Positions 23,998 to 38,048 of a stretch of DNA of 64,000 nucleotides are shown here, piece by piece (within the stretch, counting starts at the first letter, position 1; the number at the start of each line of letters is the position of its first letter). Source of the stretch: Gottfriedia acidiceleris (GTDB lineage Bacteria > Bacillota > Bacilli > Bacillales > Bacillaceae_G); the NCBI RefSeq assembly GCF_023115465.1, contig NZ_CP096034.1:3410001-3474000 (forward strand), read 5' to 3'. A model generated the notes under the pieces. It saw only the letters and a program-made list of their open reading frames with translations. It was not told the origin of the DNA and made no database searches. The translations under genes and the position numbers were made by a program.

Positions 23998-24032
23998 AAA
24001 AAACAAGACTAAATAAACCCCCTTCTTTAAAT

Positions 24033-24140
24033 GCTTACGAGGTTAGCTGTCGGATTCGGGATTAAAGAATACCCCTACCTTTACAAAAAAGGATTCACCC
24101 CAATAAAGAAATGGTTCCCCCGCTCTTTTTAAGATTAAGC
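24033..24140 (-). promoter_or_regulatory. c-di-AMP riboswitch (ydaO/yuaA class) upstream of kimA
   Basis: Minus strand, in order: GCTTAATC, then CGGGGGAACC, GGGGTGAATCC, GGTAGGGG, and CGAATCCGACAGCTAACCTCGTAAGC (split here over the 3' side). These are the conserved ydaO aptamer blocks, and the outer GCTTA/GTAAGC pair closes the structure. Ligand binding normally promotes the following terminator, so kimA should be off at high c-di-AMP. Confidence 0.93.
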
Positions 24141-24181
24141 AACTATGGTTATGAATTAGAAAAATATAGAATTTAAATGTA

Positions 24182-24210
24182 AATATATAACTTCAAGATA
24201 AATTTGTAAA
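24182..24210 (-). promoter_or_regulatory. probable SigA promoter for kimA
   Basis: Minus strand -35 TTTACA (24205-24210), 17-base spacer, -10 TATATT (24182-24187). Transcription would start about 35 bases before the riboswitch aptamer. The other two riboswitch promoters in this window also use TTTACA at -35. Confidence 0.6.
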
Positions 24211-24281
24211 GAGACTTTTTTAAAAATTTACAATAGAATTTTTGAGACTAAAAAATAAAAGCAACTCTAATCCCGCTATTA

Positions 24282-24470
24282 TTAGCGTACTTGATTCCAT
24301 ACGATTTGTTGTGACTTACCCGTAGCTAAAGAGTTTGTTAATACATTTTGCACTTCTGTTTGATTAAACGTAAAAATTTTGTTATTAGCTTCTGACATAT
24401 TTGTTTCGTAACCCGTCAATAAAATAGAAAATCCACATCCAACTACTAAAGATAAAATTACTTTTTTCAT
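24282..24470 (-). CDS. small hydrophobic-leader peptide, downstream copy (62 aa)
   Basis: The 62-aa product has a basic-hydrophobic N-terminus MKKVILSLVVGCGFSILLTG, then YETNMSEANN and a polar tail ending IVWNQVR. It resembles a lipoprotein or secreted-peptide precursor, but the expected cysteine after LTG is a tyrosine; an earlier VVGC could serve as a short lipobox. GAGGAG precedes the ATG. A near-identical gene lies 296 bases upstream. The first 20 residues are almost invariant between the copies, while the mature part has diverged. I do not recognise the family. Confidence 0.6.
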   Translation of the reverse strand: MKKVILSLVVGCGFSILLTGYETNMSEANNKIFTFNQTEVQNVLTNSLATGKSQQIVWNQVR

Positions 24471-24500
24471 TTTGTTTTCTCCTCTCTATTCTTTTCAAAT

Positions 24501-24554
24501 AAAAAAACCATGACCATTGGCCGTGGTTTGACGTTCGTTTTTTAACGTAAGACC
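24501..24554 (-). promoter_or_regulatory. two-hairpin leader of the downstream peptide gene
   Basis: Minus strand: ACGTT...AACGT small hairpin, then AACCACGGCC-AAT-GGTCATGGTT followed by TTTTTTT, an intrinsic-terminator shape in front of the gene. The same arrangement precedes the upstream copy. It could be an attenuator or the terminator of the upstream copy. Confidence 0.5.
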
Positions 24555-24577
24555 AAATTCGGAAATTTCGCGACCAA

Positions 24578-24766
24578 TTATCGCACTTGATTCCAAACGA
24601 TCTCTTGTGCTTTATCAACTGCAAAAGTATTTGTTAACACGTTTTGTACCTCAGTTTGATTAAACATAGAGATCTTTTTATTAACTTCTGACTTATTCGT
24701 TTCGTACCCTGTCATTAAAATAGAAAATCCACATCCAACTACTAAAGATAAAATTACTTTTTTCAT
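24578..24766 (-). CDS. small hydrophobic-leader peptide, upstream copy (62 aa)
   Basis: Paralogue of the peptide gene at 24282: MKKVILSLVVGCGFSILMTG, YETNKSEVNK, and an IVWNQVR tail. I start at ATG 24764-24766 behind GAAAGGAGAAAAC, because a frame to 24814 would run through the leader hairpin. About three quarters of the residues are identical between copies, and length is identical. It is the first gene of the pair and has a promoter-like sequence just before its leader (24853-24881). The function is unknown; a secreted or membrane-bound peptide is the natural reading. Confidence 0.6.
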   Translation of the reverse strand: MKKVILSLVVGCGFSILMTGYETNKSEVNKKISMFNQTEVQNVLTNTFAVDKAQEIVWNQVR

Positions 24767-24797
24767 TTTGTTTTCTCCTTTCGTGATTTTTTCATAT

Positions 24798-24852
24798 AAA
24801 AAAACCATGACCAAATGGCCCTGGTTTGACGTTCGTTTTTAAACGTAAGACC
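24798..24852 (-). promoter_or_regulatory. two-hairpin leader of the upstream peptide gene
   Basis: Minus strand: ACGTTTAAAAACGAACGT hairpin, then AACCAGGGCC-ATTT-GGTCATGGTT with seven T. Since the promoter lies immediately upstream, transcription begins at this leader and meets a terminator-like hairpin before the gene. Confidence 0.55.
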
Positions 24853-24881
24853 AACTTTATCATGTTAAAATCCACTCGTCA
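24853..24881 (-). promoter_or_regulatory. probable promoter of the peptide gene pair
   Basis: Minus strand -35 TTGACG (24876-24881), 17-base spacer, -10 TAAAGT (24853-24858). It abuts the first leader hairpin. Confidence 0.5.
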
Positions 24882-24903
24882 ATTGGTGTTTTTTGGAATT
24901 TAT

Positions 24904-24966
24904 TATGTAAACGATTACTTGAAATTAATGATTTTAGGTGCTCTTTTTTTGGTAATCGTTTACATA
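24904..24966. promoter_or_regulatory. pair of cre/LacI-type operator-like sites in inverted orientation
   Basis: TATGTAAACGATTAC (24904-24918) and its exact complement (24952-24966) form 15-bp inverted arms 48 bases apart. Each contains TGTAAACGATTAC, one base short of the cre consensus TGWAANCGNTNWCA. They lie upstream of the -35 of the peptide-gene promoter. Confidence 0.45.
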
Positions 24967-25145
24967 TTTTTTTAGATTTTAAAGAGTTACATTGTAAAAT
25001 ACTCTACTTATAAAAAAAACTTTCATCTATCGGTGGAGTAACAAGCGTAGTTACTAGCACAACCACTAATAGTACCGTAAAGAATGATTAATTTAACAAT
25101 TTATTCTCTATCCTATAGAAGCAATAATTAATTTTAAAATGCAAT

Positions 25146-25199
25146 AAAAATAGGGTAATTAACTTTTTGATATAAAAAAAGTAATTACCCTATTTTTTT
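25146..25199 (-). terminator. terminator after ktrA
   Basis: TAGGGTAATTA-CTTTTT pairs with AAAAAG-TAATTACCCTA, flanked by A-run and T-run. It follows the ktrA stop codon on the minus strand. Confidence 0.85.
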
Positions 25200-25209
25200 C
25201 CTCTTAAAT

Positions 25210-25863
25210 TCATTCAATATTTGAAAAACGATGCAAATCCCTATTTTCTCCAATCATTACCAATATATCTCCTTCATGTATTACCTCATCAGGTGAGGGT
25301 GATATATTAACAACTCCTTCACTTTTAATAGCAATTACAGTTAAATTATATTCTACTCGAATATTTAATTCCTTCAACGTTTTCCCTACCATCTGAGAAG
25401 GAAGCTTTATTTCTTCTATACTGTAATTATTTGCAAGCTCAATAAAGTTTAAAACATTTGGTGACATAAGCTGATGTGCTACCCGTTCACCCATGTTCTT
25501 CTCAGGATAGATAACCCAATGTGCACCTACCTTTTTTAAAACTTCTCCGTGACGCTTATCTAATGCCTTCACGACAATCTTGTTAATGTTTAGTTCATTT
25601 AACACTAATGTTGTTAAAATACTAGCTTGCATATCATTACCAATTGCTACAATAACTGAATCAAAATTACTGATTCCAATTGCTTTTAAAGACTCTTCAT
25701 TAGTTGAATCTGCAATCACTGCATGTGTTGCAATATCTGCAATTTCATTAATACGTTCTTCATTAATATCGATCACTAGAACTTCATTTCCATGTTGCAA
25801 TAAAGTATTCACAATACCTGAACCAAATCTTCCAAGCCCAATTACTGCATATTGTTTTTTCAT
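25210..25863 (-). CDS. ktrA: KtrA/TrkA-type RCK regulatory subunit of potassium uptake
   Basis: A 217-aa cytosolic gating protein. The N-terminal RCK domain has the nucleotide-binding QYAVIGLGRFGSGIV (residues 3-17) and VLVIDINEERI (about 29). The C-terminal TrkA-C (RCK_C) domain begins at about residue 140 (IEEIKLPSQMVGKTLKEL). Octameric rings of such proteins gate the KtrB channel with ATP/ADP, and c-di-AMP binds the RCK_C domain of KtrA/KtrC in other Firmicutes. Gene order is ktrB then ktrA, 35 bases apart, with AGGAGC before the ATG. No riboswitch precedes this pair. Confidence 0.88.
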   Translation of the reverse strand: MKKQYAVIGLGRFGSGIVNTLLQHGNEVLVIDINEERINEIADIATHAVIADSTNEESLKAIGISNFDSVIVAIGNDMQASILTTLVLNELNINKIVVKALDKRHGEVLKKVGAHWVIYPEKNMGERVAHQLMSPNVLNFIELANNYSIEEIKLPSQMVGKTLKELNIRVEYNLTVIAIKSEGVVNISPSPDEVIHEGDILVMIGENRDLHRFSNIE

Positions 25864-25898
25864 ATTCGAATAGCTCCTATAACTTGAATTATGTTTTT

Positions 25899-27239
25899 TT
25901 AACCTATCATAATTTTTCCTTTTGGACGTTTAAACGGATCTGAATGTCTTCTTAACGTGATAGCAAAAGCAACTGTCAGTGGTCCCACTCTTCCTGCAAA
26001 CATTGTCAAAATAATTAGTATTCTTCCAAATGGAGTTAAATCAGGTGTTAACCCCATTGATAATCCAACTGTACCGAAAGCAGAAGTTGCTTCAAACAAG
26101 ATCATTAAGAAGTCCTTTCCATGTTCCGTAATAGTTAAAATCATTGTTACAAACATCACGATTAGTAAACCACTTACCGTTACAGTTAGCGCTTTATAAA
26201 TTGTATCGTACATTATACTTCTATTAAAAAATACAACATCTTCTTTCCCTTTAATTTGTGACCGAACCGCGCCTAATAAAGTAGCAAATGTAGTCGTTTT
26301 AATTCCACCTCCTGTAGAACCAGGAGATGCTCCAATGAACATAAGGATAATAATAATGAACAGTGTAGATTGTGTTAAATCAGGAATATTGAGTGTATTG
26401 GAACCTGCTGTTCTAGGTGTTACAGATTGATACAATGAACCAAGTAATTTACCTGACCAAGACAATGGCTGTATAGTTTTAGGATTGTGGAATTCCAATA
26501 AGAAAATAAAGATAGTTCCTATTATCAATAAAAAGAGACTTGTCCGAAGAACAACTTTTGTATGTAAAGAGAGAAATCGAGTTTCTTTGTATTCGTATAG
26601 CTCGTTCATAACAATAAAACCAATTCCTCCAAGAGTAATGAGTAAAGAAATTACGATCGTAACAATTGGGTCTGCTACATAACTAGTTAGGCTATTAAAT
26701 CCCCCCATTAAATCAAACCCAGCATTATTAAAATTTGATATAGAATGAAATATTCCAAAATAAATTGCTTTTTTTATTGGGAAATCAACTGCAAAACGTA
26801 CCGCAAGTAAGATCCCACCAATTAATTCAATTACAATCGTAAAAATAAAGATTCTCTTTACCAATCGAACAATTCCCGCTATCGATAAATTGTTTAAAGA
26901 CTCCTGTAATAATAATCGTTCTTTCAATGAAATTTTCTTACCTAATAGAATGGCAAAAAAAGTTGCGAATGTCATAAAACCTAAGCCACCTACTTGTATT
27001 AGTGACAATATAACCAATTGCCCAAAGACAGTAAATGTTGTACCTGTATCCACAACTACAAGTCCTGTTACACAGGTGGCTGATGTCGAAGTGAATAACG
27101 CATCTAACCATTTCAGACCTTCTCCATTTTTCGTTGCAATTGGAAGAGTTAGAAGAATAGCACCTAATAGAATGATAAATGCAAACCCAGTCACTAAAAC
27201 TTTAGAAGGATCTAAGGAAAACTCTGGCCTTTTTTTCAT
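25899..27239 (-). CDS. ktrB: KtrB/TrkH-type potassium uptake pore subunit
   Basis: The membrane pore of a Ktr potassium transporter. Four M1-P-M2 repeats are visible through their P-loop sequences: ATCVTGL, SNFNNAGF, TPRTAGSN and SAFGTVGLS. The intramembrane gating loop is ASPGSTGGGIKTTTF in the third repeat. I start at ATG 27237-27239, nine bases after GAGG, giving 446 aa, the usual KtrB length; a frame to 27308 adds a basic extension lacking a binding site. It is the first gene of a two-gene unit with ktrA, and divergent from the antiporter gene at 27430. Confidence 0.88.
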   Translation of the reverse strand: MKKRPEFSLDPSKVLVTGFAFIILLGAILLTLPIATKNGEGLKWLDALFTSTSATCVTGLVVVDTGTTFTVFGQLVILSLIQVGGLGFMTFATFFAILLGKKISLKERLLLQESLNNLSIAGIVRLVKRIFIFTIVIELIGGILLAVRFAVDFPIKKAIYFGIFHSISNFNNAGFDLMGGFNSLTSYVADPIVTIVISLLITLGGIGFIVMNELYEYKETRFLSLHTKVVLRTSLFLLIIGTIFIFLLEFHNPKTIQPLSWSGKLLGSLYQSVTPRTAGSNTLNIPDLTQSTLFIIIILMFIGASPGSTGGGIKTTTFATLLGAVRSQIKGKEDVVFFNRSIMYDTIYKALTVTVSGLLIVMFVTMILTITEHGKDFLMILFEATSAFGTVGLSMGLTPDLTPFGRILIILTMFAGRVGPLTVAFAITLRRHSDPFKRPKGKIMIG

Positions 27240-27429
27240 TGTGTACAACCTCACTTTTTTCCTTATTTTGTTTATTCTCATTAAATAGTTCATTTTTAGC
27301 GTTCCCATTGATGAAAAAAAATAATTACGACTTGTCTTCTAGCAATGGAGTTTCTAATAAATATTTCAAGTGCATCAAGGTCAATCTAAGAACATAAATA
27401 ATGAAGAATGTTGAGAGGGGCTTTAAACG

Positions 27430-28671
27430 ATGGAATCAGATGTAATGAAAATAGTCGACCATGAGTTATATATCATCACTTTAGTTTTGATTTTCGGCTT
27501 ATTAGCAATGAAATTAGCTGAAAAAATAAAAATTCCTGATGTAGCTCTATTTATAATAACAGGTATAATATTAGGCCAATCCGTGTTTAATATAATCTCA
27601 GTACCAAATGAATCCGCTGCTTATCAATTCATAATCGTTTTAGGATCGGTACTCATCCTTTTTGATGGAGGTAGAGCCATTCAATTCTCTGTTCTAAAAA
27701 AAGTATGGATTACGATATCACTTTTATCGATAATCGGGGTTCTCATCACTGCTACGGTAGTAGGGTTTACCGCTTTTTACATATTAAAAATACCTATTTT
27801 ATATTCATTTTTACTGGCCTCCGTTATAGCTTCAACAGACCCAGCAACTTTGATTCCTGTATTCAAACAAATTACCATTCGAGAAAAGGTAAAAGAAACA
27901 GTAGAAAGTGAGTCTGCATTTAATGATGCAACAGGTTCCATTTTAGCATTTACAATTCTGGGTGTTATTTTAGGACAAACTCAATTATCTATTACATCTA
28001 GCATATGGAGTTTTATCAAGGAGGCTGGAGGTGGTATTTTAGTAGGAGTTGTTATTGGTTTCTTAGGTGTTTTTTTTACATCCGAACACAGATGGGGATT
28101 GCTAAAAAGATACAGTAAAATTGTAAGTTTTGTTGCTGCGACAAGCTCATATATTGCAGCTGGATCTATCCATTCAAGTGGATTTATGGCTACTTTTACT
28201 GCTGGTCTTATTATAGGTAATCCTCAATTGTTTCGACTTCATATTTCGGAAAAAACAAGAACAACCGATGCACATTTTTCAGATACGTCTACTTTAATTA
28301 TGAGAACACTTATTTTTATGTTACTAGGTACACAAGTGAATTTTCATATTATAAGTAAATTCTGGATACAAGGCATATTGATTGTCTTAGTATTTATGTT
28401 TATTGCAAGACCACTTACAGTCCTTGCATGTACATTGCCTGATCGAAAAGCTAAATGGAAATGGAATGAGATTCTGTTTATGTTTTGGGTTAGAGAAACA
28501 GGTGTAATTCCAGCAGCACTTTCCGGGATGATTGTTGCAGCAGGAGTTGATTATGCAGACGAAATTACAACTGTCACCTTTATTGCAATACTAATGACGA
28601 TACTAATTCAGGCTAGTACAACTGGCTATGTAGCTAAAAAGCTAGGCATTTTAGTAGATCAGGTTAATTAA
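27430..28671 (+). CDS. CPA-type cation/proton antiporter (NhaP-like)
   Basis: A 413-aa monovalent cation/proton antiporter with about 12 to 13 membrane helices. Key residues are in ASTDPATLIPVF (helix 4-5 unwound region) and ESAFNDATGS (the ND pair of CPA1-type, electroneutral exchangers). No cytosolic RCK or CBS domain is attached. GAGAGGGG precedes the ATG. It is divergent from ktrB with only 190 bases between the start codons. Placed among potassium importers, it may provide the export arm (K+/H+ or Na+/H+), but selectivity cannot be read from sequence. Confidence 0.85.
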   Translation: MESDVMKIVDHELYIITLVLIFGLLAMKLAEKIKIPDVALFIITGIILGQSVFNIISVPNESAAYQFIIVLGSVLILFDGGRAIQFSVLKKVWITISLLSIIGVLITATVVGFTAFYILKIPILYSFLLASVIASTDPATLIPVFKQITIREKVKETVESESAFNDATGSILAFTILGVILGQTQLSITSSIWSFIKEAGGGILVGVVIGFLGVFFTSEHRWGLLKRYSKIVSFVAATSSYIAAGSIHSSGFMATFTAGLIIGNPQLFRLHISEKTRTTDAHFSDTSTLIMRTLIFMLLGTQVNFHIISKFWIQGILIVLVFMFIARPLTVLACTLPDRKAKWKWNEILFMFWVRETGVIPAALSGMIVAAGVDYADEITTVTFIAILMTILIQASTTGYVAKKLGILVDQVN

Positions 28672-28773
28672 AATACATTTAAAAATACGATTTAAAATGA
28701 AGGTTAATACCTAATTTGACTTTGATTAGAAATAATCTTCCTCAATTTATTAAACATGGTACTTTATCATAAA

Positions 28774-28822
28774 AAAATGCCCCGATTACTATTTATGGCT
28801 AGCAATCCGGGGCATTTTAAAC
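28774..28822 (+). terminator. terminator after the antiporter gene
   Basis: AAAATGCCCCG pairs with CGGGGCATTTT (28808-28818) around a 23-base loop, about 100 bases after the antiporter stop codon. Confidence 0.7.
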
Positions 28823-28862
28823 TTTTAGGTTTTGCTCTAACTTTCTGTCTTAATTTTTACTT

Positions 28863-28967
28863 TCATTTCATATTCATATTTCCCAATTTTTCTGTTGAAT
28901 TTTCATTAAATTCTCTTCTGTTTCTTTTATTTGTCAGCTTTGCTACTTGTCCAATTGTATAATTCAT
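28863..28967 (-). pseudogene. truncated MerR-family regulator start
   Basis: A 34-codon frame begins MNYTIGQVAKLTN, which matches the first helix and turn of MerR-family DNA-binding domains, then goes into low-complexity sequence and stops. The second helix and dimerisation region are missing. This is a short match and could be a relic of a lost regulator. Confidence 0.4.
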
Positions 28968-28979
28968 GAACACTCATCC

Positions 28980-29315
28980 TTAATAAGGCATAATTCCTTT
29001 TTCATTTAGAATTTTACCATTGTAATTTATCTTACTTAATTCATAATCAGTAATAATTTTTGCACCTTCAACTATTGTTTTGCCTATTGGTGTATTTCCA
29101 TTTAGGTCAGTCGTAGTAAATTCAGGTGTAACACCAAAAATCTCTGGACCATCACTACAAAATTTTTTACCTAATGAAAGTGTTAATGAATTGTTAGCAG
29201 TTTTTGAGGAATTATAACCAAGTATATTGATTGACGCTGCTTCTCCACGATCAATTAATGTTTGCGATGCCAAATCTGTCGTAACATTAATAAAAAAAGC
29301 ATGAAATTTTTCCAT
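28980..29315 (-). CDS. hypothetical protein (111 aa), N-terminus resembles DUF3870
   Basis: The first 32 residues (KFHAFFINVTTDLASQ, then TLIDRGEAASINI) resemble the AFFIGLVVDRTSHLIVDADCSATISL stretch of the DUF3870 protein at 57509, but the conserved start of that family is absent. The remainder includes LGKKFCSDGPEIFG and DLNGNTPIGKTI, which I do not recognise. The start codon lies within the terminator of the kdpD-like gene and has no clear binding site. It could be a remnant fusion or a chance frame. Confidence 0.35.
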   Translation of the reverse strand: MEKFHAFFINVTTDLASQTLIDRGEAASINILGYNSSKTANNSLTLSLGKKFCSDGPEIFGVTPEFTTTDLNGNTPIGKTIVEGAKIITDYELSKINYNGKILNEKGIMPY

Positions 29316-29323
29316 TTCACGCT
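29292..29323 (-). terminator. terminator after the kdpD-like gene
   Basis: Minus strand AGCGTGAAAT-GGAAAA-ATTTCATGCT followed by TTTTTTT. One mismatch in a 10-bp stem. It ends the kdp transcript. Confidence 0.75.
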
Positions 29324-29359
29324 CATTTAGAAAATGATACTTTAAAGAAATTACTTTTT

Positions 29360-31714
29360 TTACTTCCTTTGAAGGTTACAAGATTTTGCACTTTGATCTG
29401 CAACAACTAAAACATCTAAAAAACGTAATTCCCTTAACAGTTTTTGAACAATTGATCCAGTTTTTATTTCTTGCCATCTAGTACGAGCAGACTGTCCTAT
29501 AATGACATGAGTTGTCTTTTTTTCACAAATATTTTTTACTAATTCAATAAAAACATGTCGCCGATCAGTTGTCTCATACAATTCAAACGAACCACCTAAA
29601 CGTTCAGTTAAGTCTTTTATTATTTTTAATGAAAGCTTTTCTTTTTCAGATAATTTATCATGGTCTTTAACAAAGGCCACAAACAATTTAGCTTTTAAAC
29701 GATAAGCTATTCGAAAGCCTCGTCGAATAAGCCTTTCACTATTGGATTTTAAATTTACACAAACAAAAATTACTTCTTCTTGTCGCCATGGTCCTCTGAG
29801 CGTTAAATCTCTTTCCCAAGCTTCTAGACGTTCATCTACATCGTCTGCTACTTCCCTAAGCGCTAATTCTCTTAAAGCAATTAAATTTCCAGTTTTAAAA
29901 AAATTATTTAGCGATTGTTCTATTTTTATTGGAGCGTAAATTCTTCCTTCTCTTATTCTTTGCCTTAGTGCTTTTGGAGAAATATCAATTAATTCAATCT
30001 CATTGGCTTCTCTTAATATTTGGTCAGGAACTGTTTCTCTAACTCTAACTCCAGTTATTTGTTCAACACTATCGTTTAAACTTTCAACATGTTGAATATT
30101 CATTGTTGAAATGACTGATATTCCCGCTTCTAAAATTTCTTCAACATCTTTATATCTCTTATTAAACTTACTTCCTGGAGCATTCGTATGTGCTAATTCA
30201 TCGATTAAAACTACTTCTGGGTTTCTTTGTATAATTGCCTCTGTATCCATTTCCTCAAGTGTCGTTTCTTTATACGGAATGATACTTCTTGGAATAATTT
30301 CTAAATCTCCTACTTTTTCTAACGTTTCTTTTCTACCGTGAGTTTCAAGTAGCCCAATTACAATATCGATACCTTTTTTCTTAAGTTCATTTCCTTCTCT
30401 TAACATCGTGTAAGTTTTTCCCACGCCAGGAGCAGCTCCAATATAAACTTTTAATGAACCTCTTTTAATTTTATGAATTTCATGTGCAAGCTCTTGCGGG
30501 CTCAATCGACGATATGGATTTACTACTTCTTTATTAACTTGCTTTGTAGGAATTACTCTTTCTCCATCTTTTTCCGCTCGATCAGCAACAATAAAAACAT
30601 CTATATTGCTAGTTTTCCTTAAAATTTTATTTACAATTGAACCTTTTACGATTTCTTCCAAACGCGTTCTCTTTGATTGCCCTATTACAATACTTGTTAT
30701 ATTGCTATTAATAGCATATTTGATTATTTCACTTGCAATTGAATGACTAGTTAATGATAATTCTTCAAAATTACCTCCAACTTTTTCAACAAGTTTTATG
30801 ATCGAGCGTTTAAACGTTAATTCATCATTTGTAAATTTTTTATTAGGTGGTTGAAAGCATACAACATGCAAATCTCCACCCAATCTTTTTGAAATTTGTT
30901 GTCCCCTTCTTACTAAAATAGAACCATTCAAATGATATTGAACAGTAACTAATATTTTTTCAGACGCTCCAGATGGTCCGACTATACCGTGTTTTTCACG
31001 GTATTCATCAAGCTCGTCATTAACCTCGCTAGCTATAAAACGAAGAGCAAGTTCACGAAGAACTGCTAAATTACTTTTATGAAATAATTGGTGACGCTTT
31101 TTATTTTCTCCTTTATTGTCATAATCTTCATTTGATCTCTGTAAAATAACTTCAGGTGTAACATCTAATAACCTGACTTCATCTGCCAAAGCTAAGGTTT
31201 CTTCTGGAACAAATAAATTGCTCCTAACTTTGCCACCAGTCAACTTTTCAGCTTCATCATATACTTCTTTTATTTCATATATATTCATAGTCGTAATAAC
31301 GCTTATATTTTTGGATAGTAAGTAATTAATATCTTCTAACCGTGTTGGAAATATTGCTTCGAGTCGATTTTGATGGGCTAGTGAATCAACAAGTACGACT
31401 TCAGGATTTCTTGATATAATTGCAGCTAAGTCAAGATCTTGTTTAACAGTCCCCCCTTCTTCCCATTTAATGGTAGGTATTTTTTCTAAACAACCAACTT
31501 GGTCAATCGTTTTTTGACGGTTTGTCTCACTAATTAAACCAATCACAACATCTATTCCACGCTCCTTCAATCCGTTCCCTTCCTGGAGCATATGATATGT
31601 TTTGCCAGATCCACTTACCGTTCCAATGATAATTTTCAATCGACCTTTTTTGATTTTCTGAATAGATTCTAGTAATTCCTCGGGTGTTTTCCTCCGAAAC
31701 TGTTTATCGCTCAA
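29360..31714 (-). CDS. tandem KdpD N-terminal domain protein without histidine kinase (784 aa)
   Basis: Two complete KdpD-type sensor modules are fused head to tail. Module 1 (about 1-385): KdpD domain with Walker A GTVSGSGKT and a degraded Walker B (VVLVDSLAHQN), then a universal-stress-protein domain (ILVTVQYHLNGSILVRRG, VIGQSKRTRLEEIVKGS). Module 2 (about 400-775): Walker A GAAPGVGKT, intact Walker B VVLIDELAHTNAPGS, then a USP domain (VIGQSARTRWQEIKTGS). The four-helix membrane region, GAF and kinase domains of full KdpD are absent. It starts at TTG 31714, seven bases after AGGAGG. It is the last gene of the kdp operon. No KdpE is nearby, so it cannot signal by phosphotransfer alone. Confidence 0.85.
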   Translation of the reverse strand: MSDKQFRRKTPEELLESIQKIKKGRLKIIIGTVSGSGKTYHMLQEGNGLKERGIDVVIGLISETNRQKTIDQVGCLEKIPTIKWEEGGTVKQDLDLAAIISRNPEVVLVDSLAHQNRLEAIFPTRLEDINYLLSKNISVITTMNIYEIKEVYDEAEKLTGGKVRSNLFVPEETLALADEVRLLDVTPEVILQRSNEDYDNKGENKKRHQLFHKSNLAVLRELALRFIASEVNDELDEYREKHGIVGPSGASEKILVTVQYHLNGSILVRRGQQISKRLGGDLHVVCFQPPNKKFTNDELTFKRSIIKLVEKVGGNFEELSLTSHSIASEIIKYAINSNITSIVIGQSKRTRLEEIVKGSIVNKILRKTSNIDVFIVADRAEKDGERVIPTKQVNKEVVNPYRRLSPQELAHEIHKIKRGSLKVYIGAAPGVGKTYTMLREGNELKKKGIDIVIGLLETHGRKETLEKVGDLEIIPRSIIPYKETTLEEMDTEAIIQRNPEVVLIDELAHTNAPGSKFNKRYKDVEEILEAGISVISTMNIQHVESLNDSVEQITGVRVRETVPDQILREANEIELIDISPKALRQRIREGRIYAPIKIEQSLNNFFKTGNLIALRELALREVADDVDERLEAWERDLTLRGPWRQEEVIFVCVNLKSNSERLIRRGFRIAYRLKAKLFVAFVKDHDKLSEKEKLSLKIIKDLTERLGGSFELYETTDRRHVFIELVKNICEKKTTHVIIGQSARTRWQEIKTGSIVQKLLRELRFLDVLVVADQSAKSCNLQRK

Positions 31715-31742
31715 GATTTTGCCTCCTTTCTTTTACATAATG

Positions 31743-31767
31743 AAAAAAGGGAAGAAAACTCTCCCCT
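31743..31767 (-). terminator. weak terminator between kdpC and the kdpD-like gene
   Basis: Minus strand AGGGGA-GAGTTTTC-TTCCCT followed by TTTTT, overlapping the kdpC stop codon. It may lower expression of the KdpD-like gene relative to kdpFABC. Confidence 0.5.
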
Positions 31768-32326
31768 ATTTTAATTTCTGTAAATCTATGTTCAGTTCCA
31801 ATATATTCACGCGTGGCTCTCCAAATATTCCTAGTTGGCGACCTTTTATATGACTATTAATTAAAGATACTAATTTATCCTCTGGAATTCCTGTTGCCTT
31901 AGCAACCCTAGGAACTTGAGCTTTCACTGCTTCGGGGGATAAATCCGGGTCAAATCCAGAGCCAGATGTTGTTACTAAATCTGTTGGTATCTTTTTACCT
32001 AGATTACTATTTTCATTTTTTAATTCTTTTATTTTATCTTTTGTTTCTTTAACATATTCTTTTGACGCTACTGCTGCATTTGTTGCTGCCGAAGTAGTAG
32101 GATTATAGTTAGCAGCAGAAGCTCTAGAATGGAACCATTCTGGTCCTTTAAATTCTTGAGCTAATAGTTTAGAGCCCATAACTTTTCCATTTGTTTCTAT
32201 TAAACTACCATCCGCTTTTTTCGGGAAAATAACTTGTGCGACACCTGTTGTAGCTAATGGATAGCCCAATCCGCATATTATTATCAATACAATAGATGTT
32301 CTGATCGCAATCATAACTGATTTCAC
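31766..32326 (-). CDS. kdpC: potassium-transporting ATPase subunit KdpC
   Basis: A 186-aa protein with one N-terminal transmembrane segment (IAIRTSIVLIIICGLGYPLA) and an extracytoplasmic domain. Typical motifs are EFKGPEWFHSRASAANYNP (about 55-73), GSGFDPDLSPEAVKAQVPRVA (split over about 120-140) and LVSLINSHIKGRQLGIFGEP. KdpC stabilises the KdpFABC complex and raises its affinity for potassium and ATP. It lies 24 bases after kdpB. Confidence 0.93.
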   Translation of the reverse strand: MKSVMIAIRTSIVLIIICGLGYPLATTGVAQVIFPKKADGSLIETNGKVMGSKLLAQEFKGPEWFHSRASAANYNPTTSAATNAAVASKEYVKETKDKIKELKNENSNLGKKIPTDLVTTSGSGFDPDLSPEAVKAQVPRVAKATGIPEDKLVSLINSHIKGRQLGIFGEPRVNILELNIDLQKLK

Positions 32327-32350
32327 ATTAAATCCTCCTATTCTTACTTT

Positions 32351-34390
32351 TTAAACAAATTGCAATGTAGATACAATCATATCGATAACTTTAATTCCAA
32401 AAAACGGCACAATAACTCCACCTATTCCATAGATTAACAAGTTTTTAGATAATAGTTTGTTTGCATCCATCGGTTTATATTTCGCACCCTTCATCGCAAC
32501 AGGTATGAGGATTGGAATAATGATCGCATTAAAAATTAATGCTGACAGGATTGCTGACTTCGGCGAGTTCAATCCCATAATATTTAGATAATCCAATTGT
32601 GGAATTGCCATTATAAATAGAGCTGGAATAATCGCGAAATATTTCGCAATATCATTTGCAATCGAAAATGTTGTTAATGAACCACGAGTGATTAATAGCT
32701 GCTTACCAATCGCGATTACAGATAATAATTTAGTAGGATCAGAGTCTAAGTCAATCATATTTGCAGCTTCTTTTGCAGCCATTGTTCCTGAATTCATCGC
32801 TAAACCAACATCAGCTTGAGCTAGAGCAGGAGCATCATTTGTTCCATCGCCGGTCATCGCAACTAACTTACCTTCATTTTGTTCTTTTTTAATAGCAGCA
32901 ATTTTATCTTCAGGTTTAGCTTCTGCAATAAACTCGTCAACACCTGCTTCTCTAGCAATTGTTGCAGCAGTTAAAGGATTATCACCAGTACACATTACAG
33001 TTTTGATCCCCATCGCTCTTAATTCATCAAATCGCTCTTTTAAGCCTGGTTTAACTGTATCTTTTAAATAAATAACACCGTAAATTTTATCATTTATTGC
33101 AACAGCAAGTGGTGTACCTCCTGCTTTTGCGACGACATTTGCTTTTTCGTCTAGCTCATTCGGAATACTTCCACCTTTTGCAGTTACATATTTTTTTACT
33201 GCATCTACAGCACCTTTTCTAATTTCAGTTCCATTTTTTAAATTTAAACCTGACATTCTAGTTTCAGCAGTAAATTCAATAATTTCTGCATCCTTATAAT
33301 CATTCTCATCCCAAGTAATACCAAGTTTATGTGCTAACTCAACAACCGAACGTCCTTCTGGTGTTTCATCTTTTACAGAAGATTTTAGTGAAGCTAAAGT
33401 TATCTCTCTTTCTGTTATACTTCCAACCGGAATGAATTCACTCGCCATTCGGTTACCGAATGTAATTGTTCCGGTCTTATCTAAAATCATCGTATCAATA
33501 TCTCCAGCAGCTTCAACTGCTTTACCAGACATAGCTAAAACATTAAATTGTGTTACACGGTTCATCCCTGCAATTCCGATTGCAGAAAGTAATCCACCAA
33601 TCGTAGTCGGTATTAAACAAACAAGTAAAGCGATTAATGTTGCTACGTCAATTGAGACATTTAAATAATTCGCAATTGGAACAAGCGTCATTATGACGAT
33701 TAAAAACACTAAAGTTAATACTGCTAATAAAGTCGTTAATGCAACTTCATTCGGAGTCTTTTGACGAGCCGCACCTTCAACTAATGAAATCATACGATCT
33801 ATAAACGATTCACCAGGATCCGTTAAAATTTTAACAATGATATAATCTGAAACTACTCTAGTACCGCCAGTTACAGATGAAAAATCTCCACCAGCTTCTT
33901 TAATAACTGGCGCTGATTCACCTGTAATAGCTGATTCATCGATGGATGCTAACCCTTCAATAATCTCACCATCTGAAGGAATAATTTCACTTGTATCAAC
34001 TCGAACGATATCTCCTTTTCTTAAAGAAGTAGATGGTACTTCTATATATGATCCATCTTTTTGTCTTAACTTCGCATTTGTTTCTGATTTCGTTTTTCTT
34101 AATGTATCTGCTTGCGCCTTCCCACGTCCCTCTGCAAGAGCTTCAGCAAAGTTTGCGAAAAGTACTGTAAATAATAAAATTAAAAATACCGCAATATTAT
34201 ATGGTCTTCCTACTGTGCTAATTCCAAAAATATCTGGCCTAATAGAAAGAATTAATGTAATAAAAGTACCAACTTCTACGATAAACATGACTGGATTTTT
34301 TACCATAACAAGTGGATTCAACTTTTTAAAAGAATCGATTATTGCCTGAGTTTTTATTTCTTTAGAAATAGGCTTATTTTCTATAGCCAT
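32351..34390 (-). CDS. kdpB: potassium-transporting P-type ATPase subunit KdpB
   Basis: The catalytic P-type ATPase of Kdp, 679 aa. It shows the actuator TGES (about 157), the phosphorylation site DKTGT (about 303) and the hinge [17 protein letters not shown] (about 510). It has seven membrane helices in the usual arrangement (two pairs before the P domain, three after). ATP hydrolysis drives potassium uptake through KdpA. GAGGAG precedes the ATG. Gene order kdpF-A-B-C is canonical. Confidence 0.96.
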
Positions 34391-34422
34391 ATGATCAATC
34401 TCCTCTTTCTTTATTATTGCTA

Positions 34423-36102
34423 CTATTTAAACATTCCTAAGTGTTCAGCGATTGGTCCGAGTGCAAGTACTGGGAAAAACGTTAATGCACAGACGATTAC
34501 AATAATCGCAATTAAAATAACTGTAAATAATGGTGTATCCGTTCGGAATGTTCCAGACGTTACTGCAACAATTTTTTTAGTAGAAAATGAGCCTGCAATT
34601 GCTAACATAGCAATAATTGAAATATATCGACCAAATAACATAACTAATCCAATTACGATATTATAAAAATCGGTGTTCGCTGTTAAACCACCGAATGCAG
34701 ATCCATTATTAGCAGCTCCAGAAGTAATGGCGTACAGCACTTCAGATAAACCATGGAACCCTGGATTTAATATAGAAGAAACTGGTCCTTTTAATGCTAA
34801 TGCTAAAGCAGTTGGAACTAAGATAATTAAAGGGTGAGTTAAAATCGCAATAGATGCTAGTTTAATTTCTTTTGCTTCAATTTTCTTTCCTAAAAATTCT
34901 GGTGTTCTACCTACCATTAGCCCACATATAAAGACAGATAAGATGACATATAATAATCCGTTTAATAAACCAACGCCCTTTCCACCAAAAACATTATTTA
35001 ACATCATTTCAGCAAGTGGTACCATTCCACCAATAGGCGTTAATGAGTCGTGCATGTTGTTTACTGAACCAGTTGTTGCAGCAGTAGTAACCGCTGTAAA
35101 TAGAGCAGATTCTGATATTCCAAATCGAACCTCTTTTCCTTCCATATTTCCATGTATACCAAGTGCTTGTAATGCAGGAGTTCCGTTATACTCTGCAACA
35201 AAAACTGCTGTAAGAAGACCTAAAAATAATATGCCCATTGCAGCAAATACTGTCCAACCTTGTCTTTTATTTTTAACCATTACACCAAATGCATAAACTA
35301 ATGATGTTGGTAAAAGCATCATACAAACGATGTGAACTAAATTTGATAAAGGTGTAGGATTTTCAAATGGATGAGCCGCATTTGTACCAAAAAATCCTCC
35401 ACCGTTTGTACCAATATGTTTAATTGATTCGAGTGCAGCTACTGGTCCCCTAGTAATGATTTGTTTAACTCCTTCAATTGTTGTCGCATCTACGGCACCT
35501 TTTAATGTTTGTGGTACACCTTGGAATACTAAAAATAAAGCAACGATAAATGATAATGGTAAAAATACTCGAGTGATTGAGCGAACTAAATCAACATAAT
35601 AGTTTCCTAGATGATCCTGACGGCCTACTAACCCTCTAATAAATGCTATAGCTACTGCAAAACCTGTAGCAGCAGAAGTAAACATTGGGTACGTAATAGC
35701 CATCATTTGTGAAAAATATGAAAGTGAATTTTCACCACTATAAGATTGCCAGTTTGTATTTGTAATAAAAGAAGTTGCCGTATTGAATGCCAAGGCAGAT
35801 GGCATATTACCTATATGATCAGGATTTAAAGGCAAATATTTTTGAAATCTAAAAATTGCATATAACATTATTAGCATGACAAAATTACTTAACAACATCG
35901 CTAATACATATTTTTTCCAACCCATTTTCTCTTCTTCTCGTACACCAATTAACCGATATACTAATCTTTCAAAAGGTCCAAAAAAGCGATCTAATCCTGT
36001 TTTCTCACTGTCATATACTTTAACAAGGTAGCTACCTACTGGCTTTATTAATAAAACAATAATTAGCAATGTAACAACTACCTGTAAAATTCCCATGGAC
36101 AT
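34423..36102 (-). CDS. kdpA: potassium-transporting ATPase subunit KdpA
   Basis: The potassium-selective channel-like subunit, 559 aa with about 10 helices. P-loop segments of the KtrB/TrkH superfamily are TNWQSYSGE (about 118), [19 protein letters not shown] (about 230), [10 protein letters not shown] (about 342) and [17 protein letters not shown] (about 465). It follows kdpF by 32 bases and is followed by kdpB 32 bases later. Expression is expected to depend on the c-di-AMP riboswitch about 600 bases upstream. Confidence 0.96.
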
Positions 36103-36134
36103 TTAATAATTCCTCCCACATGTTAAACTAATTT

Positions 36135-36212
36135 CTAAAATTTCTCTGGTTTAATTAAGACAAAAACTAAATAAAGAATAAGTACAATTCCAATAATCGC
36201 TGGAATAATCAT
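36135..36212 (-). CDS. kdpF: KdpF small membrane subunit (25 aa)
   Basis: A 25-codon gene whose product MIIPAIIGIVLILYLVFVLI ends in KPEKF, the single-helix KdpF signature with its KPE(K/R)F end. KdpF is a lipid-like stabiliser of KdpA-KdpB. It starts behind AAGGGGGAAATAAC and lies just before kdpA. Confidence 0.88.
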   Translation of the reverse strand: MIIPAIIGIVLILYLVFVLIKPEKF

Positions 36213-36226
36213 TTGTTATTTCCCCC

Positions 36227-36313
36227 TTACGCTTTTTCACAAAAAATTGTAAACCCCCAAAAAATTGCAAAAACGATTACTAGTAAACCCACCATTGTTA
36301 AATCATTTATCAT
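36227..36313 (-). CDS. small membrane peptide preceding kdpF (28 aa)
   Basis: A 28-codon frame, MINDLTMVGLLVIVFAIFWG and FTIFCEKA, with a good AAAGGAG site and one hydrophobic helix. It is the first gene of the kdp operon, 14 bases before kdpF. It differs from kdpF itself. It may be an extra Kdp-associated peptide or a translated leader peptide. Confidence 0.6.
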   Translation of the reverse strand: MINDLTMVGLLVIVFAIFWGFTIFCEKA

Positions 36314-36375
36314 TGCAATTCTCCTTTCTTTGAACTCTAAATTTTTTTATGTTTTCTAAGCCGTTTCTGAACAAT

Positions 36376-36512
36376 AAAAAAGACCAATGGATACTAATCT
36401 CCCAATCAATTAACTAATATTTAGTTTGAAAAACATAATTTCTAAATGAAATATGTCTACACCAAACTTGTTTTAGTTAATTGAAATACGGAAGAAAAGC
36501 ATTCATTGGTCT
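36376..36512 (-). other. long nested stem structure ending in a T-run, kdp leader
   Basis: Minus strand, outer to inner: AGACCAATG/CATTGGTCT, TCAATTAACTAA/TTAGTTAATTGA, AGTTTG/CAAACT, and ACATATTTC/GAAATTATGT with one bulge. The 3' outer strand is followed by TTTTTT. It forms a roughly 137-base extended hairpin with terminator character, 60 bases before the first small kdp gene and downstream of the riboswitch terminator. It matches no riboswitch class I know. Confidence 0.6.
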
Positions 36513-36657
36513 ACCTAACACCCAGCTAGCACTACGCTCTCTTTGTGTTCTGTCTCCCTAATCTTTTCTATACCTATCCATAATTTTCCATCTCATTACA
36601 AAATAAAAAGACCTACACAATTATTTGCTCAGGTAAAATTACTGCAGAAAATGCAAT

Positions 36658-36684
36658 AAAAAAACCCGCTCAAATTAGGCGGTC
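36658..36684 (-). terminator. riboswitch-controlled terminator in the kdp leader
   Basis: Minus strand ACCGC-CTAATTTGA-GCGGGT followed by seven T (36658-36664). It lies directly downstream of the aptamer at 36703-36823. Confidence 0.75.
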
Positions 36685-36702
36685 TACTGACCTCCCTCGC
36701 TT

Positions 36703-36823
36703 TAGCCTACGAAGTTAGCTGTCGGGTAGGATGGCGAAAGAGTATCTCATCCCTTCTACATTCATGTAAAATTAACCCCAAAAAATTGGTTCCTCCGCTT
36801 ACGAATGATTCGTAATTAAGCCG
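36703..36823 (-). promoter_or_regulatory. c-di-AMP riboswitch (ydaO/yuaA class) upstream of kdp
   Basis: Minus strand blocks: GGCTTAA, GCGGAGGAACC, GGGGTTAATT, CATCCTACCCGACAGCTAAC and TTCGTAGGC. The order and closing helix match the ydaO class. Some conserved positions differ from the other two copies (GGAGG for GGGGG, GTTAAT for GTGAAT, AACTTC for AACCTC), so ligand affinity may differ. Confidence 0.88.
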
Positions 36824-36843
36824 ATATTTATTTTGTTGACTCG

Positions 36844-36872
36844 ATTATACGGCGTTGTTTTTTACATGTAAA
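36844..36872 (-). promoter_or_regulatory. SigA-type promoter for the kdp operon
   Basis: Minus strand -35 TTTACA (36867-36872), 17-base spacer, -10 TATAAT (36844-36849). Transcription would start about 15 bases before the aptamer. Confidence 0.75.
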
Positions 36873-36914
36873 GAGTTTTTTTTCAACAAAAAAATTTTAG
36901 TAAATTTTTACCCC

Positions 36915-36942
36915 TTTACAATTTTATTTATCTCTGTATGAT
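36915..36942 (+). promoter_or_regulatory. SigA-type promoter for the MpsC-like/CBS operon
   Basis: -35 TTTACA (36915-36920), 16-base spacer, -10 TATGAT (36937-36942), about 25 bases before the plus-strand riboswitch. Confidence 0.65.
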
Positions 36943-36973
36943 AAACATATCAACAAAATAAATTTGCTGTAAT

Positions 36974-37085
36974 CGCTAAATCGTGAATTCGAGCGGGGGA
37001 ACCATTCGTGCATTGCACATGGGGTGAATCCAATTATGGTAGGGCTACTTTTCAAGCCCGAATCCGTCAGCTAACCTCGCCAGCG
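36974..37085 (+). promoter_or_regulatory. c-di-AMP riboswitch (ydaO/yuaA class) upstream of the MpsC-like/CBS operon
   Basis: Plus strand blocks: CGCTAAATCG, GCGGGGGAACC, GGGGTGAATCC, TAGGGC, CCCGAATCCGTCAGCTAACC and TCGCCAGCG. All conserved positions are intact, and CGCT/AGCG closes the structure. It points away from the kdp riboswitch, about 150 bases distant. Confidence 0.93.
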
Positions 37086-37144
37086 TTTGAAGAGAGCAAA
37101 ACTAAATCGCGTTATTAATATTTCAATATACTTTTTATTGGTAT

Positions 37145-37187
37145 AAATAGCTACGAGAAAATTGCTCTTCTTGTAGCTATTTTTTTG
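37145..37187 (+). terminator. riboswitch-controlled terminator with a competing antiterminator
   Basis: AAATAGCTAC pairs with GTAGCTATTT followed by TTTTTG. The loop contains TTGCTCTTC, which can instead pair with GAAGAGAGCAA (37089-37099) right after the aptamer, so the two forms appear mutually exclusive. Confidence 0.8.
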
Positions 37188-37216
37188 TTTTAAATAACAG
37201 TATGGGAGAGATATTA

Positions 37217-37594
37217 ATGATGACATCGAAAAAAAAGCTAGAAATCGAATTAAGTGAGGCATTTATTAAATTCCAAAGAGAGCTGATTGGAAGAGGTCCT
37301 CAAGAAGCCAAAACTTATATAGTTGAAGATATGATTATCCTCCGATTTAAAGGCGTATTGACAACAGAAGAGAAACATTTAGTTTCACATACTACAGGAA
37401 AAAGTCTTGTAAAAAAAATGCGCCAAGTACTTAGAGAAATGTATAGTAAAGAATATGAAGAAATTATTGAAAAACATACTGGTTGTAAGGTTTTATCTAG
37501 TCATAGTGATACTAGTACAAATACTGGTGAACGAATTGAAGTTTTTGTAATGGATCAAAATATTAATAAGTTACTAGAAGCAAAGAACAACTAA
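37217..37594 (+). CDS. DUF2294/MpsC-like protein
   Basis: A 125-aa soluble protein of the DUF2294 (MpsC) family. It contains GRGPQEAKTYIVEDMIILRFKG (split; about 25-46), LTTEEKHLVS and VKKMRQVLREMYSKEYEEIIE. MpsC was named as the third component of the MpsABC membrane-potential/bicarbonate system of Staphylococcus; here no MpsA or MpsB is nearby. I start at ATG 37217, 6 bases after GGGAGAG; an ATG at 37202 overlaps that site. It is the first gene after a c-di-AMP riboswitch and is followed 28 bases later by a CBS-domain gene. A role in potassium or sodium homeostasis is inferred from this control. Confidence 0.75.
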   Translation: MMTSKKKLEIELSEAFIKFQRELIGRGPQEAKTYIVEDMIILRFKGVLTTEEKHLVSHTTGKSLVKKMRQVLREMYSKEYEEIIEKHTGCKVLSSHSDTSTNTGERIEVFVMDQNINKLLEAKNN

Positions 37595-37622
37595 ATATTA
37601 AAATTATAAAGGAGTATGAAAA

Positions 37623-38048
37623 ATGAATATCGCGTTTTTCTTTACCCCAAAAAATGAACTTGTTTTTATGAATATCAATTCTACAATGCGTCAAGCACTT
37701 GAGAAAATGGAACACCATCGTTATTCGGCTATACCTTTAGTCGATGATAATGGCAAATATGTTGGTACACTTACTGAAGGTGATTTATTATGGAAATTAA
37801 AAAATACTCCAAGCTTATCTTTTACTAATACAGAAGAAATCAGCTTAAATGAACTATCTCTGCACAACATATATGAGCCTGTTTCTATAAATGCACAAAT
37901 TGAAGATTTATTTACAAGAGCAATTTATCAAAATTTCATTCCTGTTATTGATGATCATGAAGTTTTTATCGGGATGGTTAAGAGGAAAGAAATTATTGAG
38001 TATTGTAGAAGGCAATTATTAGGTGATAAAAATAGAGCAACTACATAG
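37623..38048 (+). CDS. two-CBS-domain protein
   Basis: A 141-aa stand-alone CBS pair. The first domain contains TMRQALEKMEHHRYSAIPLV and GKYVGTLTEGDLLW; the second contains PVSINAQIEDLFTRAIYQNF, IPVIDD and FIGMVKRKEIIEY. CBS pairs bind adenosine ligands, and some stand-alone Firmicute ones (DarB/CbpB) are c-di-AMP receptors. Sequence similarity to DarB is low, so ligand identity is inference. AAAGGAG precedes the ATG. It shares an operon, and therefore a c-di-AMP riboswitch, with the MpsC-like gene. Confidence 0.85.
   Translation: MNIAFFFTPKNELVFMNINSTMRQALEKMEHHRYSAIPLVDDNGKYVGTLTEGDLLWKLKNTPSLSFTNTEEISLNELSLHNIYEPVSINAQIEDLFTRAIYQNFIPVIDDHEVFIGMVKRKEIIEYCRRQLLGDKNRATT

Follow-up and report, generated by a model that had tools for sequence, protein, structure and literature searches.

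A doubled KdpD/Usp protein downstream of kdpFABC in Gottfriedia acidiceleris, a probable fusion of a pseudokinase sensor with a KdpB kinase

Short proteins that combine a KdpD domain with a universal stress protein (USP) domain are described as atypical serine kinases that phosphorylate KdpB at Ser162 and thereby switch off the potassium pump KdpFABC; the protein of Deinococcus geothermalis is stimulated by cyclic di-AMP (c-di-AMP) (PMC11018627). According to the same source, the KdpD domain of Escherichia coli, for which ATPase activity was not seen, also phosphorylates KdpB Ser162, and the reaction needs D109, E110 (required for phosphotransfer), the Walker A motif and the W39/R190 pair. In Bacillus anthracis, the short KdpD is reported to bind c-di-AMP, and kdpD to have some influence on kdp and ktr transcripts (PMC11302148), while in Bacillus thuringiensis c-di-AMP leads to transcription termination through a kdp riboswitch, and deletion of the single short kdpD is reported to leave kdp transcription unchanged (PMC6488665). 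Here, we analyze a 64,000-nucleotide stretch of the Gottfriedia acidiceleris genome (NZ_CP096034.1, positions 3,410,001 to 3,474,000; hereafter the window, whose numbering is used throughout), in which the open reading frame at 29360..31714 on the minus strand, directly downstream of kdpFABC, encodes one protein of 784 amino acids (aa) with two KdpD+USP modules in tandem, termed A and B from the N-terminus. We propose that this protein is probably a soluble off-switch of KdpFABC, in which a pseudokinase/sensor (module A) is fused to a KdpB kinase (module B).

Pfam finds two PF02702 (KdpD) stretches in the protein (517.5 bits for the whole) and one USP stretch, along with two weak overlaps with other P-loop models (ResIII and Microtub_bd), and neither a GAF nor a histidine-kinase domain at E ≤ 0.01; no membrane helix is suggested by hydropathy, with a 19-residue maximum of 1.09. 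The NCBIfam model NF038185 (KdpD_non_kinase, "KdpD-like non-kinase potassium sensor"; curated cut-off 550 bits) matches the whole tandem with 814 bits in two stretches, the best at aa 400-773, and scores the separate modules at 502.9 and 323.4 bits. A sequence-only reading of the window had described two KdpD+USP modules free of membrane, GAF and histidine-kinase regions, the first with an intact Walker A motif and DS in place of the Walker B DE, the second intact, and this description holds in full (Table 1). The profile search it called for yielded both PF02702 domains and, from Pfam, only one of the two USP domains; USP-B rests on the NF038185 match and a structure model. With its two modules, the protein departs from the single module of about 380 aa of NF038185-type short KdpD proteins, and by Pfam and hydropathy it lacks the transmembrane, GAF and DHp/CA regions of a canonical KdpD histidine kinase. 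The surrounding frame is open for 790 aa, and the likely start codon, TTG, is preceded by a good ribosome-binding site.

We aligned the modules of 89 distinct tandem proteins (the window's own, those of 80 loci and 8 others) with 35 single-module proteins and two full-length KdpDs, using E. coli KdpD numbering. The 80 loci are the best of 203 retrieved from named genomes with the tandem protein as query, a scan without bearing on frequency. Two tandems with DE in both modules (L142 and L143, from genomes G165 and G282) were set apart, leaving 87 tandem rows. K37, the Walker B aspartate D109, R190 and an aromatic residue at position 39 are present in 87/87 A and 87/87 B modules. The catalytic Walker B glutamate, E110, is found in 87/87 B and 35/35 single modules and in 6/87 A modules. 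Across 53 core positions common to E. coli KdpD, the B modules and the single modules, the A modules keep 24 (in at least 97% of rows), including G36, K37, D109 and R190, are mixed at 18, and have lost 11 in at least 95% of rows, among them E61 (0/87), H63, K123, Q145 and H146; conserved residues specific to A include Y145 and E146 (85/87 each) and W83 (86/87). The KdpD domain of module B contains 66 invariant columns across 51 proteins. In the window's protein, Walker A, the Walker B DE and the aromatic/arginine adenine pair are all found in module B, and module A has this set without the glutamate.

Because phosphorylation of KdpB in E. coli needs E110, which is mostly lost in module A while the ATP-binding residues are kept, module A resembles a pseudokinase that would still be able to hold ATP. 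The combination of kept nucleotide-binding residues, lost catalytic residues and a gene under selection is that of a pseudokinase, as far as sequence can tell. Six comparisons within the genus group (L061, L063-L067) gave ratios of nonsynonymous to synonymous substitution rates (dN/dS) of 0.085-0.102 for KdpD-A, 0.050-0.152 for USP-A, 0.044-0.178 for KdpD-B and 0.079-0.169 for USP-B; the pairs with L068 and L069 are partly saturated at silent sites. All four domains are under purifying selection, and module A is not decaying. The degenerate site had earlier been called an ATPase site; since the E. coli domain is reported to lack ATPase activity and to phosphorylate KdpB (PMC11018627), it is better understood as that of a serine kinase.

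Conservation of the two domain types is crossed between the modules. Mean column entropy is lower in B for the KdpD domain (0.75, against 1.18 in A; p 4.6e-8) and lower in A for the USP domain (1.25, against 1.68 in B; p 7.2e-5), as compared by Wilcoxon tests over columns of 87 proteins that are related to one another and include many from Paenibacillus; the KdpD domain is thus better kept in B and the USP domain in A. The two USP loops in contact with nucleotide in Staphylococcus aureus KdpD, as described in PMC8214093, show entropies of 0.45 in USP-A vs 1.79 in USP-B (β1-α1, p 0.055) and 1.07 vs 1.95 (β4-α4, p 0.0035). In the β1-α1 loop, the pattern QY[HY][WL]NGS occurs in 84/87 A modules, 0/87 B modules and 0/35 single modules. 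Across the family, a division in which A senses and B acts has good support; for the window's own protein the support is weaker.

Several observations weigh against the proposed mode of action. Six A modules retain DE, and the strict β4-α4 pattern of single modules (34/35) is kept by 49/87 A and also by 20/87 B modules. Within the 22 tandems from Bacillales, the difference between USP-A and USP-B is not significant (p 0.16). The window's own USP-B keeps the single-type β4-α4 loop, as do 17 of these 22 B modules, so that module B may also bind ligand. The S. aureus c-di-AMP motif, (A/G/C)XSXSX2N, is found in the β1-α1 loop of none of the A (0/87), B (0/87) or single (0/35) modules. The domain packing of the tandem is uncertain, as an AlphaFold2 model from 51 sequences reached a mean predicted local distance difference test score of 73.8 and a predicted template modelling score (pTM) of 0.57, and our literature search showed no reported activity for any tandem member.

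The kept USP-B loop in the Bacillales tandems would fit an arrangement in which ligand is sensed in both USPs, or chiefly in USP-B, with module A as a structural partner, taking the place of the second homodimer subunit. We consider this unlikely, because the strict loop is kept in USP-B by only 3 of the remaining 65 tandems (mostly Paenibacillaceae), and because the β1-α1 loop of USP-A is nearly invariant. The c-di-AMP link that the sequence-only reading drew from the S. aureus USP domain is not transferable, as the S. aureus motif is absent from all modules examined. The kinase/pseudokinase split could serve another USP-A ligand, either a nucleotide such as ATP or AMP, which other USPs bind, or a protein partner, and the divergence of QYHWNGS from the published motif speaks for this. 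Such a ligand nevertheless seems improbable, given that the S. aureus motif is likewise missing from the short single modules examined, and that the short KdpD proteins of D. geothermalis and B. anthracis are described as stimulated by and binding c-di-AMP, respectively (PMC11018627, PMC11302148). The β4-α4 loop is similar in two Deinococcus short KdpDs and not in the S. aureus USP domain; Deinococcus sp. D7000 and D. radiodurans stood in for D. geothermalis, whose KdpD is not among the matches listed in the plasmid collection, which include other Deinococcus members. A search of plasmids with a single-module DNA stretch gave no match.

In the AlphaFold2 model, KdpD-A (aa 21-232) matches the KdpD domain 2r8r (Z 28.1, root-mean-square deviation (rmsd) 1.8) and USP-B (aa 646-774) the S. 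aureus USP domain 7ji4 (Z 16.3, rmsd 2.3). USP-A and USP-B together match the tandem universal stress proteins 7mq5 (Z 21.6), UspE 5cb0 (Z 20.6) and 3loq (Z 21.0, 246 residues, rmsd 3.0), which, at moderate inter-domain confidence, suggests an internal USP-A:USP-B pseudo-dimer. The internal heterodimer with one degenerate site that had been proposed from the letters of the window is well supported by conservation across the 87 tandems, and more weakly by this model of USP pairing.

In a quick tree built from 83 modules, which came from 30 of the 89 tandems, 21 single-module proteins and two full-length KdpDs, one clade comprised 28 A modules (support 100, stem 1.19) and a second comprised 28 B modules (support 99), the modules of L142 and L143 lying outside both. 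The tree thereby suggested an independent origin of these two tandems, which we set aside: the likelihood was higher when all A modules, or all B modules, were constrained to group together, and since approximately unbiased tests do not reject a single clade (p 0.897; p 0.767), we do not claim it. As a suggestion only, L142 and L143 may preserve the state before the catalytic loss of module A.

Across relatives, kdpA, kdpB and kdpC lie upstream of the tandem gene on the same strand in 75 of the 80 loci; the five exceptions are L071, in which the kdpA frame is short, L094, which begins inside kdpB, and L087, L100 and L106, which have no kdpABC in the stretch. L071 (Bacillus methanolicus PB1) combines an open tandem frame with short frames for kdpA (133 aa) and kdpB (446 aa). 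Of 98 long KdpB frames, 95 contain TGESA, and the three without it are all short, one from a split gene with the motif in the other frame and two from the same gene. For the 73 loci in which kdpA is preceded by at least 1.5 kb of sequence, a survey model built from the window's three riboswitches found a c-di-AMP riboswitch upstream of kdpA in 42, and 11 of the 73 have two in a row (L081, L083, L086 and others). By neighbor assignments that rest on score thresholds, 28 loci have the riboswitch only, 30 a histidine-kinase-like or KdpE-like gene only, 14 both (L077, L078, L079, L080, L085, L086, L088, L091, L095, L101, L103, L107, L108 and L115) and one neither (L112). The 14 loci with both contrast with the mutual exclusivity of kdp riboswitch and KdpDE-type control suggested in PMC6488665. 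The tandem thus accompanies either form of transcription control, consistent with a post-transcriptional role; such action on KdpFABC had been anticipated by the sequence-only reading, and would agree with the published short KdpD/Usp serine kinases (PMC11018627).

A chiefly transcriptional protein that feeds a separate histidine kinase and KdpE would have possible partners in 44 of the 73 loci, where the fetched stretch holds a KdpD C-terminal-like or KdpE-like gene. This is very unlikely in view of the 28 riboswitch loci without such neighbors, the unchanged kdp transcription reported after deletion of the B. thuringiensis gene (PMC6488665), and the G. acidiceleris genome itself. This genome, a single contig of 4.69 Mb, encodes one PF02702 protein, the tandem, and four diadenylate-cyclase matches, and no DUF4118 protein was matched in it. 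A KdpDE pair hidden elsewhere in the genome, which would have told against the earlier reading, was searched for, and the best of 29 response-regulator matches to E. coli KdpE reached 148.6 bits. In the 80 named loci, 47 frames had E. coli KdpE as best query, at 68-258 bits (36 of them at 207 or above), the low-scoring ones including frames cut by contig ends and other regulators. Because the two KdpE searches differ in set-up, these scores are a strong hint, rather than proof, that the genome has no clear KdpE in addition to having no KdpD histidine kinase.

Within the genus, the tandem occurs in 8 of 13 genomes (own included), one of which has two copies; four genomes have no match and one has a fragment. 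In six genomes from the family's remaining genera, no tandem was present, and four of the six encode a single module (382-391 aa). Frames of 760-835 aa with two modules are present in at least 22 of 397 genomes of the order, counting G165 and G282, which were treated apart, and, at a strict limit of 1e-60, in 8 of 398 genomes of the phylum (own included), seven from the same class and one (G433) from another. All 80 kept named loci encode two modules, with the second shortened in three (L112, L120 and L123); they include Gottfriedia, Neobacillus, Bacillus, Paenisporosarcina, Brevibacillus, Paenibacillus, Cohnella, Siminovitchia, Fontibacillus, Mesobacillus, Metabacillus, Domibacillus and others. 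In the tandem L181 (G717), the Walker A lysine of module 1 is replaced by N and its Walker B reads DD, and L179 (G722) consists of two adjacent unfused modules with DE in both. The tandem is a real, conserved architecture. A decaying duplication or an assembly artefact, the latter raised in the sequence-only reading and the former in line with the lost core residues of module A and the five genus genomes with no gene or a fragment, is scarcely credible for a single-contig genome with open tandem frames in 8/13 genomes of the genus, two modules in all 80 kept loci and low dN/dS in module A.

Together, the observed architecture, operon, pattern of residue retention and loss, and purifying selection suggest how the protein might work, with the kinase reaction and its stimulation by c-di-AMP taken from relatives. 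Module B would be an atypical serine kinase whose substrate is the TGES serine of KdpB, phosphorylated at high potassium, and hence high c-di-AMP. Module A, as a pseudokinase, would bind ATP and be incapable of phosphate transfer; USP-A would be a conserved nucleotide receptor, most likely for c-di-AMP, and would signal to B through the USP-A:USP-B pseudo-dimer, presumably as an activator. At low potassium, c-di-AMP would be low, the operon transcribed and the pump running; at high potassium, rising c-di-AMP would reduce transcription and turn on module B via USP-A, inactivating existing pumps. It is possible, and we put this forward more tentatively, that the tandems represent a widespread class of bacterial P-loop serine kinases built as a kinase-pseudokinase pair in one chain, in which the pseudokinase bears a c-di-AMP receptor with a novel signature, the QYHWNGS loop, and gates the active module that shuts off KdpFABC.

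The basic function, that of a short KdpD/Usp serine kinase, is known, and the division into pseudokinase/sensor and kinase is new within the literature searched. No description of a doubled KdpD was found in titles and abstract openings among the literature matches listed, and the main text of PMC11018627, whose supplementary tables classify 5495 species, makes no mention of a duplicated, doubled, repeated, fused or pseudokinase KdpD. The serine-kinase function of KdpD was published in 2024. In the tandem, sensing and catalysis apparently reside in separate modules of one chain, so that each can be mutated alone, which a single-module KdpD does not allow, and activation by the second messenger becomes accessible to testing. 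The tandem would also provide an example, from bacteria, of a pseudokinase conserved within a family of P-loop kinases, and would place a second level of c-di-AMP control on an operon already under a c-di-AMP riboswitch.

Table 1. Features of the kdp operon and its tandem kdpD-like gene (window positions)
Feature	Position	Strand	Details
Tandem KdpD/USP-KdpD/USP protein	29360..31714	-	784 aa, TTG start
Module A KdpD domain, pseudokinase-like	31019..31645	-	aa 24-232; PF02702 206.7 bits
Module A Walker A GTVSGSGKT	31598..31624	-	aa 31-39; lysine kept in 87/87 A modules
Module A Walker B, DS replacing DE	31382..31387	-	aa 110-111
Module A USP domain, proposed sensor	30581..30964	-	aa 251-378; PF00582 stretch aa 252-375
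USP-A β1-α1 loop QYHLNGS	30920..30940	-	aa 259-265; family consensus QYHWNGS
Module B KdpD domain, proposed KdpB serine kinase	29840..30463	-	aa 418-625; PF02702 322.8 bits
Module B Walker A GAAPGVGKT	30413..30439	-	aa 426-434
Module B Walker B DE	30197..30202	-	aa 505-506; E kept in 87/87 B modules
Module B USP domain	29399..29782	-	aa 645-772; 7ji4 structure match; absent from Pfam listing
Terminator-like hairpin between kdpC and tandem gene	31748..31767	-	9 such sites found vs 4.6 expected
kdpC	31766..32326	-	NF001454 215.2 bits, TIGR00681 177.5 bits
kdpB with TGES phospho-site motif	32351..34390	-	TIGR01497 1123 bits; TGESA as in E. coli
kdpA	34423..36102	-	TIGR00680 752.4 bits
kdpF	36135..36212	-	25 aa; PF09604, TIGR02115 above cut-off
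28-aa hydrophobic peptide upstream of kdpF	36227..36313	-	relatives in most loci
Candidate terminator after aptamer	36658..36682	-	short CCGC/GCGG stem and T run, by eye; weak
c-di-AMP riboswitch aptamer of kdp operon	36689..36832	-	RF00379 79.6 bits, gathering 38
Sigma-70-like site TTTACA-17-TATAAT before aptamer	36844..36872	-	11/12 matches, best of 36 in region

Going downstream on the minus strand, the order is promoter-like site, riboswitch, weak terminator candidate, peptide, kdpF-kdpA-kdpB-kdpC, hairpin and tandem gene. The region's 36 sigma-70-like sites are at chance level (shuffle mean 36.7). The candidate terminator was not picked up by the terminator scan, and folding favors another hairpin (z -0.70). 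Together with the TTG start, the hairpin before the tandem gene may keep the regulator scarcer than the pump. The 28-aa peptide, which has its own ribosome-binding site and lies between the riboswitch and kdpF, is without a Pfam or NCBIfam match; with a small model from ten seeds out of the same locus set, relatives are recovered upstream of kdpA at 82 of the 87 loci examined, whether KdpD is tandem or single, and it may be an unnamed Kdp accessory peptide.

The operon belongs to a potassium island (24017-37101) that holds three of the genome's four c-di-AMP riboswitches within about 13 kb and encodes an amino-acid/K+ transporter-type permease (which we take to be KimA-like), proteins of the TrkA and TrkH types, an antiporter of the CPA1 type and the kdp operon. 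At 36964-38048 on the plus strand, another c-di-AMP riboswitch, divergent from that of kdp, precedes an MpsC-family (PF10057) gene and a gene for a two-CBS-domain protein, CbpB-like below the cut-off (62.8 of 125 bits).

Among known systems, the tandem is closest to the D. geothermalis-type short KdpD/Usp kinase (NF038185; PMC11018627), with which it shares the restriction to KdpD and Usp domains, the lack of a histidine kinase and the position downstream of kdpFABC, in a genome that likewise has the KdpB TGES target serine and diadenylate cyclase; it differs from the type described there in its two fused modules, the first without the catalytic glutamate and other core residues. It resembles the truncated KdpD of B. 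thuringiensis and B. anthracis in having the N-terminal KdpD part only and no kdpE found, and the B. thuringiensis operon in the c-di-AMP riboswitch ahead of kdpFABC, but those proteins are described as single (365 aa in B. thuringiensis), whereas the tandem is doubled (PMC6488665, PMC11302148). Unlike full-length E. coli KdpD, it has no transmembrane, GAF or DHp/CA domains, and its module is doubled. In the model, its two USPs pack like those of tandem universal stress proteins (UspE, 3loq and 7mq5; Z about 21), from which it differs in that a KdpD domain separates the two in sequence. In outline it is similar to eukaryotic kinase-pseudokinase pairs such as JAK, in which the dead module is N-terminal to the active one, with a fold unrelated to the P-loop serine kinase of the tandem.

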